A stretch of DNA of 64,000 nucleotides. Source: Pseudomonas sp. B21-040. GTDB lineage: Bacteria > Pseudomonadota > Gammaproteobacteria > Pseudomonadales > Pseudomonadaceae. The stretch lies in contig NZ_CP087176.1 of assembly GCF_024748695.1 (NCBI RefSeq), forward strand, positions 1,729,501-1,793,500, given 5' to 3'. The stretch's first letter is position 1, and each line of letters opens with the position of its first letter. Shown in pieces: positions 5,046 through 58,316 of this stretch. The notes beneath the pieces are model-generated. The model did no database searches. It saw nothing but the letters and a program-made list of their open reading frames with translations, and was not told the origin of the DNA. Made by a program: the position numbers and the translations under genes.

Positions 5046-5157
5046 GATCGTTCCCACGCTCTGCGTGGGAATGCCTCTGGGGACGCTCCGCGTTCCGTTG
5101 TTGAATGTGACGCGGAACGTCACGGGCTGCATTCCCACGCAGAGCGTAGGAACGATC
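5046..5157. repeat. Palindromic MITE-like repeat (GATCGTTCCCACGCTC family)
   Basis: The two ends form a 29-base inverted repeat with one mismatch (5046-5074 against 5129-5157), each containing CACGCTCTGCGTGGGAATGC or its complement. A second, inner pair of complementary segments lies between them. Partial copies of the same arm occur at about 43132-43163 and 57990-58020, so this is a dispersed family. The right end overlaps the stop codon of the leftward gene at 5156. Confidence 0.8.
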
Positions 5158-14683: not shown

Positions 14684-14711
14684 AAAGGCGACCTTCGGGT
14701 CGCCTTTTTTG
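14684..14711 (+). terminator. Rho-independent terminator of the ccm operon
   Basis: A perfect 10-base-pair stem (AAAGGCGACC with GGTCGCCTTT) closes a TTCG loop and is followed by a T run. It begins three bases after the lipoprotein stop. Confidence 0.9.
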
Positions 14712-54198: not shown

Positions 54199-54274
54199 CA
54201 GCAGTCACAGGTGGTGCGGCACTTGAATGAGTGCAGCACCGAATGCGCAGTACCTAACGAAGACGGTAATAAGC

Positions 54275-55441
54275 ATGAATCTTCACGAGTATCAGGGTAA
54301 GCAGCTGTTCGCTGAATACGGCCTGCCAGTTTCCACCGGTTATGCAGTAGACACCCCGGAAGCAGCAGCAGAAGCTTGCGACAAAATCGGCGGCACCGAG
54401 TGGGTTGTCAAAGCCCAGGTCCACGCTGGTGGTCGCGGTAAAGCGGGCGGCGTAAAGCTGGTTCGCAGCAAAGAAGACGCTAAGGCATTCGCACAGCAGT
54501 GGCTGGGCAAGCGTCTGGTGACTTACCAGACTGACGCCAATGGTCAGCCAGTCACCAAGATCCTGGTTGAATCGTGCACTGATATCGCTAAAGAGCTGTA
54601 CCTGGGCGCTGTCGTTGACCGTTCGAGCCGTCGTATCGTGTTCATGGCTTCCACCGAAGGTGGCGTGGACATCGAGAAAATCGCTCACGACACTCCAGAA
54701 AAAATTCTGAAAGCCACTATCGATCCACTGGTTGGCGCTCAGCCATTCCAGGGTCGCGAGCTGGCATTCCAGCTGGGTCTGGAAGGCAAGCAGGTTGCTC
54801 AGTTCGCCAAGATCTTCGTAGGTCTGGCCAAGCTGTTCAAGGATCACGACCTGGCTCTGCTGGAAGTGAACCCGCTGGTGATCAAGGCTGACGGCGATCT
54901 GCATTGCCTCGACGCCAAGATCAACATCGACGCCAACGCCATGTACCGTCAGCCTAAGCTGAAGACTTTCCACGATCCGTCGCAAGACGATCCGCGCGAA
55001 GCGCACGCTGCCAAGTTCGAACTGAACTACGTAGCACTGGAAGGCAACATCGGTTGCATGGTCAACGGTGCTGGCCTGGCCATGGGTACCATGGACATCG
55101 TCAACCTGCATGGCGGCAAACCAGCCAACTTCCTCGACGTGGGCGGCGGTGCTACCAAAGAACGCGTTACCGAAGCGTTCAAGATCATTCTGTCCGACAC
55201 TAACGTCGCTGCAGTATTGGTTAACATCTTCGGCGGCATCGTTCGTTGCGACATGATTGCCGAAGGCATCATCGGCGCTGTGAAAGAAGTCGGCGTGAAA
55301 ATCCCGGTTGTTGTTCGCCTTGAAGGCAACAACGCTGAGCTGGGCGCTAAAGTACTGGCAGAAAGCGGTTTGAACATCATCGCTGCTACCAGCCTGACCG
55401 ACGCTGCTCAACAAGTTGTTAAAGCTGCGGAGGGCAAATAA
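54275..55441 (+). CDS. sucC: Succinyl-CoA synthetase beta subunit
   Basis: The 388-residue ATP-grasp subunit begins with [12 protein letters not shown], the family start, and has the nucleotide-binding [18 protein letters not shown] and the C-terminal [13 protein letters not shown] and [16 protein letters not shown]. The frame opening at 54227 has no ribosome site. It overlaps the sucD ATG by one base. Confidence 0.97.
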
Positions 55442-56322
55442 TGAGCGTCCTGATCAATAAAGACACCAAAGTTATCTGCCAGGGTATTACCGGTTCGCAA
55501 GGTAGTTTCCACACCCAGCAAGCGCTCGAATACGGCACCAAGATGGTGGGTGGCGTAACTCCGGGTAAAGGCGGCACCGAGCACCTGGGTCTGCCAGTGT
55601 TCAACACCGTGAAAGATGCTGTAGCTGCCACTGGCGCCACCGCCAGCGTGATCTACGTTCCAGCTCCTTTCTGCAAGGACTCCATCCTGGAAGCAGCATT
55701 CGGCGGCATCAAGCTGATCGTTTGCATCACTGAAGGCATTCCTACCCTGGACATGCTGGATGCCAAGGTCAAGTGCGACGAGCTGGGTATCACCCTGATC
55801 GGCCCTAACTGCCCAGGCGTGATCACTCCAGGCGAATGCAAGATCGGCATCATGCCAGGTCACATTCACTTGCCAGGCAAGGTCGGTATCGTTTCCCGTT
55901 CCGGCACCCTGACCTACGAAGCTGTGAAGCAGACTACTGACGCCGGTTTCGGTCAGTCGACTTGCGTCGGCATCGGTGGTGACCCGATCCCGGGTTCGAA
56001 CTTCATCGACATCCTGAAGCTGTTCCAGGAAGACCCGAAGACCGAAGCGATCGTGATGATCGGCGAGATCGGCGGTTCGGCTGAAGAAGAAGCGGCTGCC
56101 TACATCAAGGCACACGTGACCAAGCCGGTTGTTTCCTACATCGCTGGTGTGACTGCCCCTGCGGGCAAGCGCATGGGCCATGCTGGCGCAATCATCTCTG
56201 GCGGCAAAGGCACTGCAGACGAGAAGTTTGCTGCCCTGGAAGACGCAGGCGTTAAAACCGTGCGTTCGCTGGCAGACATCGGCAAGGCTTTGTCCGAGCT
56301 GACCGGTTGGGCGATGAAGTAA
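55441..56322 (+). CDS. sucD: Succinyl-CoA synthetase alpha subunit
   Basis: The 293-residue subunit has the CoA-binding [18 protein letters not shown] and VTPGKGG segments and the phospho-His region [14 protein letters not shown]. Together with SucC it makes ATP or GTP from succinyl-CoA, closing the operon. Its downstream terminator is interrupted by an IS. Confidence 0.98.
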
Positions 56323-56350
56323 GCCTCGCGCTTAATTCACGCTTCACCAA

Positions 56351-56366
56351 ACAAAGGCCACCTTCG
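56351..56366 (+). terminator. Left half of the sucCD terminator hairpin, split by an IS
   Basis: The arm ACAAAGGCCACC (56351-56362) and the TTCG loop (56363-56366) match a complementary arm GGTGGCCTTTGT at 57966-57977. Joined without the IS they give a perfect 12-base-pair stem with TTCG loop and a T-rich end. Confidence 0.75.
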
Positions 56367-56400
56367 CAGACTGTGTGAAAACGCGCTGAAGGCCGGCCCA

Positions 56401-56436
56401 ACAAACGCCCCGACTTGTTCGGGGCGTTTGTTTTGG
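56401..56436. terminator. Terminator-like hairpin inside the IS
   Basis: Arms ACAAACGCCCCGA/TCGGGGCGTTTGT (13 base pairs) with a 5-base loop, lying between the IS end and the transposase stop. It would end transcripts from sucD (+) or the transposase (-), and so may replace the split sucCD terminator. Confidence 0.75.
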
Positions 56437-56462
56437 TGCGGGCGACAGGCGAAAAAAGCCTT

Positions 56463-57881
56463 TCAGCCCATTAACGCCATCAATTGGCGGGCCCCGAGCA
56501 CACTAATTGCGCGTTTTAGGTTGTAGGCACTCACTGCCAAGGCCATTTCCGCTCTCGCGCCCTCCAGTTGACGCAACAGGAAGCGAGCATTGCCAAACAG
56601 CCATTGCTTCAGGTTGCCGAAGGGGTGCTCAACAATGGATCTTCGGTTGGCCATCATCTGCGGATGGGCCAGCATTCGTTGCTCCATTCGCTCAAAGGCT
56701 TCTTCATGGGCGTGGCGTGAGACGTAGCGGCGCTGAGCGCCAGTGCATTGGGATTTGAGCGGGCAGGCGGCGCAGTCGCTGACATCTGCCTGATAGATCC
56801 GATCGCCCTTGTGGCGCTGTTTGAGCGTTAACCACTTGCCTGCCGGGCACTGATAACGATCGTGTTCGGCTTCGTAGATAAAGTCTTTGCGCTCAAAAAA
56901 GTCCTCACCACCAGGATTGACCGAGCGGTTGGGCGGCACATAAACGGTAATCGCAGCCTCCTCGCAGGCCTGAAACTGCTGGCCGTTGGAGTAGCCGGCA
57001 TCGGCAGTCACGGTCAGGGCATCTTGTTCCAGCTGTTCTTTGGCGGCTTTAGCCATTGGTTCGAGTTGCTTGCGGTCGTCGCCATCCTGGGTAACCTCAT
57101 GATGCAGAATCAGGCAATGCTTGGCATCCACGGCGCTCTGCACGTTATAGGACACACGCGGCCCCTTGGGCGTGCGCATCATTCGGGCATCGCTTTCGTG
57201 GGTGTTGAACTGCTCCAGGCCCATCGAGTTCATCAGCGCTTGGCAGCTCTGATTGTCCTGCTGGCGAACTTTAAGCTGCACCAGTGCTGTTTTGATCGCG
57301 CCGCGATCAATCACCTCTCCCGCATCGAGCCTGTCAGCCTCATCCAGTTCGGCCAGATACTGAGCGATGCGCTTATCCAGTTTTTCTTCCTGACGCTTGA
57401 GTTGCTTGAGGTTCATATGGCGCCGCGAGGAAGCGACTGCCTGAAACTTGCTGCCGTCGATGGCCACCAAGTCTCCTGCGATCAGACCGGCCATGCGGCA
57501 AAACCGGACGAAGGCACCGCACGTCGCCACAAAGGCGGATTTGTTGTTTTTGCGAAAGTCGGCGATGGTCTTGAAGTCGGGCTTAAGCCGGTTGATCAGC
57601 CACATCACTTCGATGTTGCGCTGGCACTCGGCTTCGAGACGCCGCGATGAGCGAATCCGCTGAAAATAGCCATAGAGGTAGAGCTTGAGCTGATCGGCAG
57701 GATCATAAGAAGGACGACCTGTGCTTTTGGGCAGCGCTTTATCAAAGCCCAGTTGCACCAGATCCAGCTTGGCGACGTACAGGTCAATAACCCGAACGAG
57801 ATGATCCTCGGGGATCAGTTCTTCCAGCGAGACCGGGAACAGACTGGTCTGGCTACGGGACTCACCTTGGATGTAAGCCAT
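56463..57881 (-). CDS. IS1182-family DDE transposase
   Basis: The 472-residue protein shows the N-terminal DUF772-type segment (RPSYDPADQLKLYLYGYFQRIRSSRRLEAECQRNIEVMWLIN), ADFRKNNKSAF, GDLVAIDGSKFQAVASSRR with a catalytic Asp, the TADAGYSNG segment with a second Asp, the CXXCXXXXXC-like metal patch (CAACPLKSQCTG) and C-terminal RRSIVEHPFGNLKQW with the catalytic Glu. The frame is intact. ATG 57881 was chosen; the hairpin at 57887-57920 lies just upstream on its mRNA. Confidence 0.92.
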   Translation of the reverse strand: MAYIQGESRSQTSLFPVSLEELIPEDHLVRVIDLYVAKLDLVQLGFDKALPKSTGRPSYDPADQLKLYLYGYFQRIRSSRRLEAECQRNIEVMWLINRLKPDFKTIADFRKNNKSAFVATCGAFVRFCRMAGLIAGDLVAIDGSKFQAVASSRRHMNLKQLKRQEEKLDKRIAQYLAELDEADRLDAGEVIDRGAIKTALVQLKVRQQDNQSCQALMNSMGLEQFNTHESDARMMRTPKGPRVSYNVQSAVDAKHCLILHHEVTQDGDDRKQLEPMAKAAKEQLEQDALTVTADAGYSNGQQFQACEEAAITVYVPPNRSVNPGGEDFFERKDFIYEAEHDRYQCPAGKWLTLKQRHKGDRIYQADVSDCAACPLKSQCTGAQRRYVSRHAHEEAFERMEQRMLAHPQMMANRRSIVEHPFGNLKQWLFGNARFLLRQLEGARAEMALAVSAYNLKRAISVLGARQLMALMG

Positions 57882-57886
57882 AACGA

Positions 57887-57920
57887 AAAATGCTCCGTAT
57901 CTTTCGATACGGAGCATTTT
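57887..57920. promoter_or_regulatory. Long hairpin 5' of the IS1182 transposase
   Basis: Fifteen-base perfect arms (57887-57901 and 57906-57920) around a 4-base loop lie immediately before the transposase start. Such hairpins often limit transposase translation or read-through in insertion sequences (inference). Confidence 0.65.
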
Positions 57921-57961
57921 CTTTGAGCTTTGCGCAGATTGCTAGGTTTTCACACAGTCTG

Positions 57962-58316
57962 TTCGGGTGGCCTTTGTCGTTTCCGGGTGATCGTCCCCAC
58001 GCTCTGCGTAGGAACGATCAATCATCGGTTGAACGCCCCAAGTCTTGTGGCAGCGGGCTTGCTCGCGAAGACGGATTTACAGGCATCCACCATTTACATG
58101 CATAAACGCGACACAGAAACGTCGCGTATCGGATAGTTCGCCCTCTAACAGTGCGTTTGTCGGGCAAATTCGTTAGGCTACTCGCCATTTTTGCGTCCGC
58201 GTCCCACAAGGTTGCTACGCGCTAAAGGGTCAGTCCTATACGGACCGACAGCATTTCCCTCACCCCCAAGGGAAGTCCCTCTCTAAATTCCGATTCAGTA
58301 GTGTGGTATTTCCTTA
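57962..58316. other. Intergenic, right half-terminator and repeat fragments
   Basis: Contains the right arm of the split terminator (57966-57977), a partial GATCGTCCCCACGCTC palindrome arm pair (about 57990-58020) and a single REP (about 58045-58072). From 58080 to 58316 no gene is seen; it should hold the brnQ promoter and has a CGGACCGACAG/ACTCGCC-rich leader without a recognised riboswitch. Confidence 0.5.

Follow-up and report, generated by a model that had tools for sequence, protein, structure and literature searches.

Does an insertion sequence that lies exactly in the loop of a terminator owe its position to chance, or does its transposase choose targets by their shape? The question is raised by a 64,000-nt stretch of the Pseudomonas sp. 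B21-040 genome (the window; positions 1,729,501 to 1,793,500 of contig NZ_CP087176.1), where a 1595-bp element (56367..57961) sits downstream of sucCD. Its perfect 16-bp terminal inverted repeats, CAGACTGTGTGAAAAC at 56367..56382 on the forward strand and the inverted copy at 57946..57961 on the reverse strand, enclose a single transposase frame on the reverse strand (gene 56463..57881, encoding 472 aa when read from the conserved start MAYIQGES; the frame is open from 57917). The product scores 431.4 bits against NF033551, the IS1182 equivalog model (cut-off 270), which bears out the IS1182-type identity given in a first-pass annotation of the sequence. It carries DUF772 and DDE_Tnp_1 and exceeds the cut-offs for PF01609, PF05598 and PF13751, as a DDE transposase should. 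The element has no match among phage records, and the transposase has no relative among solved structures at E 0.1 or better. Upstream on the forward strand lie the sucC open frame (54227..55441; PRK00696, with family models matching from residue 17) and sucD (55441..56322; PRK05678, TIGR01019), which ends 28 bp before the interrupted stem. A sucC RNA element (Rfam RF01759, 83.8 bits) is found at 54204-54273, upstream of sucC.

The flanks of the element are the two halves of one hairpin. On the forward strand, the left arm ACAAAGGCCACC (56351..56362) and a TTCG (56363..56366) precede the element, and a second TTCG (57962..57965) and the right arm GGTGGCCTTTGT (57966..57977) follow it. Deleting the element and one TTCG in silico yields ACAAAGGCCACC-TTCG-GGTGGCCTTTGT, whose arms pair perfectly over 12 bp around a TTCG loop, just as expected from the proposal that a terminator was split at its tetraloop and the loop duplicated. 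The stem was described correctly; the T-rich tail also claimed for it is, at CGTTTCC, only modestly T-rich, and most of the T lies inside the stem. Relatives preserve the unoccupied site. The 3′ part of sucD, used as a query against 57 genomes, matched in 55, the genome itself among them, and the sequence downstream of sucD was read in 29 relatives. Whereas an empty-site strain without the terminator structure would have counted against a split terminator, 26 of the 29 carry the uninterrupted TTCG hairpin, one has the same stem with a CTCG loop, and two differ. In the nearest relative, G005, the empty site is exactly as predicted.

The same arrangement recurs across the genome. Scoring 40 of 82 candidates gave at least 12 full copies, 10 of them identical and two with one base different. 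Every copy is flanked by a 4-bp repeat and retains both arms and two copies of the loop. When the element and one repeat are removed and the flanks folded, as the first-pass annotation had suggested, all 12 sites form stem-loops preceded by an A-tract and followed by a T-tract. With a GC stem-loop, a T stretch and a position after a gene, these are predicted intrinsic terminators. The repeat equals the loop in 10 of the 12 and is off centre by 0.5 bp in copy L002 and by 1 bp in L008. All 12 reach a hairpin score of at least 24, which occurs within 4 bp of a random position in this genome at a frequency of 0.0037 (20,000 draws from 1.2 Mb). The loops read TTCG (five), CGAA (four), TATC, TTGG and CTGG, and no copy is inserted at a TTCG outside a hairpin. 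Frames of 80 codons or more end 12–45 bp from the loop centre at 10 of the 12 sites. Such a frame lies on the left at TTCG sites and on the right at CGAA sites, except at L009, so the element enters in either orientation. The genome also holds a decayed relic of about 224 bp (L013, G000:C1 about 3273793-3274016) that has kept both element ends, with a hairpin still recognizable at each, and lost the transposase gene. Strong repeated palindromes of the form GTTCCCACGC-NNN-GCGTGGGAAC, with loops of 3–5 nt and no tracts, occur at window positions 5058 and 43145 and at L089:2909; none of the 12 copies uses them.

Copies in other Pseudomonas genomes follow the same pattern, with exceptions. A DNA search of 398 genomes, with two candidates scored per genome, gave matches at E 1e-100 or better in 32. 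Copies were sought in 22 of these (30–40 candidates scored per genome, named loci added). The final set comprises 117 distinct element-flank pairs, with elements at 67–100% DNA identity; 106 have a repeat of 3–6 bp and 11 have none. Another 39 loci were left out: five duplicates of copies already counted in the B21-040 genome, and otherwise truncated copies, contig edges, one short flank or ends not found. Most of the intact ends of 10 left-out loci show terminator-like halves, and one such locus outside the counts, L226, has a 4-bp repeat with pairing arms. Under one scoring rule, 87/106 repeat-bearing copies reach a hairpin score of at least 16 and 68/106 a score of at least 24, compared with 6.1% and 0.37% of random positions, these background rates coming from 1.2 Mb of one genome and the targets from many. 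They replace earlier background terminator counts made under stricter or different rules on smaller stretches. Sites without a clear hairpin, which had been named in advance as evidence against loop targeting, form a minority of 19/106; none is in the B21-040 genome, and 10 are among the 29 repeat-bearing sites of genome G383.

G383 also contains at least 35 copies of a single element within 6.4 Mb, and there are signs of rearrangement between copies. Within the right end of its L226 copy (G383:C1:3145818-3150405) lies an inverted-repeat element of about 103 bp with a CTAG-like repeat, which resembles a MITE from a different family. REP palindromes (GCAGCCTTCGGCAGC loop; foot of GGGAGCGGGCTTGCTCGCGA) take the place of terminators at L142, L147 and L153 in G236 and at L051 and L128; the junction sequences of L128 are those of L051, at a REP, and L043 resembles these copies. 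In G614 and G723, IS1182 relatives with about 45% protein identity (L297, L308, L298, L309 and L312) have about 20 bases of flank in common on each side, and from these flanks they look like sequence-targeting elements, as if a fixed repeated sequence had been entered. Remote relatives, these included, come from other families within the order and from Collimonas and Methylobacterium; their ends or sites were too indistinct to score.

The cut is placed relative to the hairpin centre. Among the 87 hairpin-sited copies, the repeat is centered on the loop in 68 and identical to it in 60. Repeats are usually 4 bp long, sometimes 5 or 6, and their length follows the parity of the spacer: even and odd spacers number 58 and 7 at 4-bp repeats and 3 and 14 at 5-bp repeats (P = 2.6e-8, Fisher's exact test), while only two of four six-base repeats keep the rule. 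This test was chosen after the data had been seen, in place of the raw correlation between repeat and loop length, which is not significant (Spearman 0.15, P = 0.17) because the T-A pair that closes a 5-nt loop was scored as stem.

Shape is not all that distinguishes the targets. Strong hairpins outside long frames in the B21-040 genome have no, one or both tracts in 57, 32 and 30 cases, against 1, 11 and 56 among targets of equal strength. Judged by these counts, hairpin shape by itself is insufficient, and an A-tract before and a T-tract after are preferred. At least one terminator-type tract is present at 103/106 repeat-bearing sites and both at 71. Together with the nearby gene ends at 10 of the 12 sites in the B21-040 genome, this is what would be expected if the act of termination, through paused RNA polymerase, a nascent RNA hairpin or an R-loop, guided insertion, and not DNA structure alone. 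We consider such guidance unlikely. The element inserts in both orientations (five TTCG and four CGAA sites in its own genome) and the cut is symmetric about the dyad; moreover, a few copies occupy REP palindromes (L153, L142, L147, L051). The tracts themselves are undiagnostic, as AT-rich flanks also ease cruciform extrusion. Terminators could be favored over hairpins at large by AT-rich stem bases that ease extrusion, or by transcription itself.

The sites also share a consensus at fixed distance from the repeat, with A in 75–89% at positions −8 to −11, C in 86% at −1, and the mirror images on the other side (n = 105 copies, repeats of 4–6 bp). A transposase dimer might thus read a duplex that is palindromic but degenerate, consisting of an A-tract at −8 to −11, C or G beside the cut and a T-tract at +8 to +11, with no hairpin formed, arm pairing being merely a by-product of terminators. 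However, arm positions 3–7 show little base preference, yet they pair in 69–78% of cases against 31–47% expected from base composition. Among sites that fit the A-tract/GC/T-tract pattern, at least four of these five positions pair in 39/45 targets (those with four-base repeats; 9/10 in the B21-040 genome alone) and in 10/53 background sites (P = 1.3e-11, Fisher's exact test). Pairing therefore matters beyond sequence. Since the repeat also follows spacer parity, we find duplex reading quite unlikely.

Loop sequence adds a further preference. TTCG or CGAA forms the loop at 9/12 sites in the B21-040 genome and at 23/65 four-base repeats, compared with 4 of the 80 background terminators whose loops are 4 nt long. 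Read on one strand together with its closing pair, this loop is C-GAA-G, a very stable DNA mini-hairpin, and that stability would fit recognition at the DNA level. Extrapolating, about 22 TTCG/CGAA loops remain free in the genome and nine are taken. One free hairpin of the preferred type lies in the window at 14684..14707 on the forward strand; it had been noticed earlier as an intact TTCG hairpin, and only its extent, then put at 14684-14711, needed to be shortened to a 10-bp stem.

Some targets are occupied more than once. The orthologous sucCD terminator loop of G383 contains an element with 85% identity that points the other way (L194); up to the junction, the 400 bp to its right, when reverse-complemented, align at 90% with the 400 bp to the left of the element in the window. 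L003, L005 and L010 also share flanking sequence, as far as the junction, with copies elsewhere; for L012 the match begins about 35 bases on. L005 and L044 lie in one orientation, and common descent could account for this pair. L158 and L041, whose elements are 74% identical, lie in one terminator with repeats ACTAG and CTAG. Random insertion, with selection leaving only harmless copies at gene ends, was already disfavored and is very improbable in the face of these sites: terminator regions do tolerate insertions, and the accessible text of a large survey reports IS1182 as over-represented between convergent genes (PMC9208149), but neutrality cannot put 60/87 copies exactly on the loop, leaves the TTCG preference unaccounted for, and does not predict that the same loop is occupied in another species in opposite orientation. 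That the TTCG match is a one-site coincidence and the element simply prefers TTCG/CGAA as sequence is scarcely credible, despite the nine such sites among 12, as 42/65 four-base repeats at clear hairpins have other sequences and 5- and 6-bp repeats exist.

The copies without a repeat have a history of their own. Seven of the 11 are chimeras, with half-stems that find their pairing partners in other copies of the same genome: G383 has a swap of halves between L178 and L188 and a three-way ring of L180, L183 and L182, and G236 a swap between L142 and L147. The left half of each chimera pairs with, and repeats, the right half of its partner. These seven lack a repeat because of recombination between copies. 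The explanation covers these copies and not L037, L042, L111 and L175. The half-stems thus serve as address tags that name a lost partner and make recombination between copies readable.

The element also brings hairpins of its own. All 31 distinct elements have one near both ends, about 30–45 bp inside: the strongest hairpin starts at 29–42 within the first 110 bases and, within the last 130, ends 32–44 bases before the element end. In the window, the left hairpin (14-bp stem, CTTGT loop) lies between the transposase gene end and the left end of the element. The first-pass annotation had recognized it at 56401-56436, now mended to 56400..56432, and had missed the right one at 57887..57920 (15-bp stem, TTTC loop). 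This second hairpin lies in the transposase gene leader, 5 bp before the start, and contains GGAG. Both show covariation, with pairs changed on both sides at 5/11 positions of the left stem and 4/13 of the right, and 97–98% of cells in the built-in stems pair, against 28–56% when one side is slid by 1–3 columns. For the right hairpin, two of five covariation measures, the number of both-side-changed pairs and the pair types, were also reached by shuffles (38 and 164 of 500). A promoter and terminator consensus scan of 56200-58200 listed no promoter-like site, two terminator-like sites that are both inside the transposase gene, and neither element hairpin; the hairpins were missed because their T stretches lie inside the stem and the scan needs one after it. 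From its position, the left hairpin could end both transposase and sucCD transcripts, and the element's own hairpin may in this way replace the lost sucCD terminator, while the right hairpin could hide the ribosome site from outside transcripts.

Taken together, it is very probable that shape guides target choice in a Pseudomonas branch of the IS1182 family, whose members enter the centre of a terminator stem-loop, duplicate the loop and carry built-in hairpins. So far as genome comparison can establish them, site choice, loop duplication, dependence on pairing, the preference for TTCG/CGAA and for tracts, and the conserved end hairpins are all established, and the reality of site choice in particular is strongly supported. 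As to mechanism, the transposase would act on an extruded DNA cruciform, or on its loops. It would join each 3′ end of the element to one of the two opposed loops, at corresponding edges. Gap filling would then copy the loop into a target repeat and leave half of the terminator stem on each side. The element hairpins would restore termination for the split gene and shield the transposase gene from outside transcription. Whether the full version holds, in which a DDE transposase reads the cruciform and cuts the opposed loops at their edges, loop size sets repeat length, and two built-in terminators mend the split ones so that up to 35 copies per genome are carried at little cost, seems to us evenly balanced.

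How a transposase finds shape instead of sequence is an open question, for which IS1272 had given only a form that removes the hairpin. Because the Pseudomonas element keeps the stem and duplicates the loop, dozens of natural insertions allow a base-by-base comparison of target with product, and repeat length is a ruler for the cut position relative to the dyad. These insertions also offer a natural test of whether hairpins form in living cells. Targeting of gene ends combined with built-in terminators amounts to a safe-harbor strategy, and the element may be a nearly harmless guest.

Other elements take palindromes as targets. The REP-targeting ISPpu9/10 (IS110-type), IS621 and IS1397 enter repeated extragenic palindromes, aiming at a defined repeat sequence, and IS110 uses a guide RNA; the targets of the Pseudomonas element, in contrast, differ in sequence and share a shape. 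With the IS1182 family at large it has the transposase family and terminal inverted repeats in common, and ISPpu20, of this family, is 70% identical to it in DNA.

Within the family, a 4-bp repeat is given for ISPse1 in the text available (PMC3281130), and palindrome targeting by some members is credited to Siguier et al. 2015 (via PMC5678879, PMC4923244). The accessible IS1182 literature contains no data for loop-exact insertion, for repeats that follow the spacer or for paired internal hairpins, and a search that covered few subscription papers and not ISfinder turned up no account of an insertion that hits the loop exactly and duplicates it. The closest parallels are IS1272 and TnSha1 of Staphylococcus. 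According to the available portions of the reports (Wan et al. PMC5678879; Furi et al. PMC4923244), these IS1182-family elements insert at inverted repeats or hairpins that share no consensus in primary sequence and include several confirmed terminators; they use several targets more than once and in both orientations, and delete the hairpin or part of it, leaving no target repeat. The Pseudomonas element shares the family, the hairpin targets and the two orientations; its targets are likewise inverted repeats without a sequence consensus, yet with preferred TTCG/CGAA loops and tracts. Unlike IS1272 and TnSha1, it keeps the stem as two halves and duplicates the loop: both arms and two loops remain in all 12 copies of its own genome, and a repeat of 3–6 bp flanks 106/117 copies, with chimeras accounting for seven of the other 11. 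Loop duplication does appear as pathway c of the IS1272 model (Wan et al. 2017, Fig. 13; PMC5678879), in the text we could consult a branch of the model and not an observation; the repeat expected from it, equal to the loop, is what the hairpin-sited copies have (exact in 60/87, centered in 68/87), and we think that the loop-edge joining proposed here is this pathway. Hairpin targeting in the IS1182 family was thus already published for IS1272, and what the Pseudomonas element adds is a stem that is kept and a loop that is duplicated.
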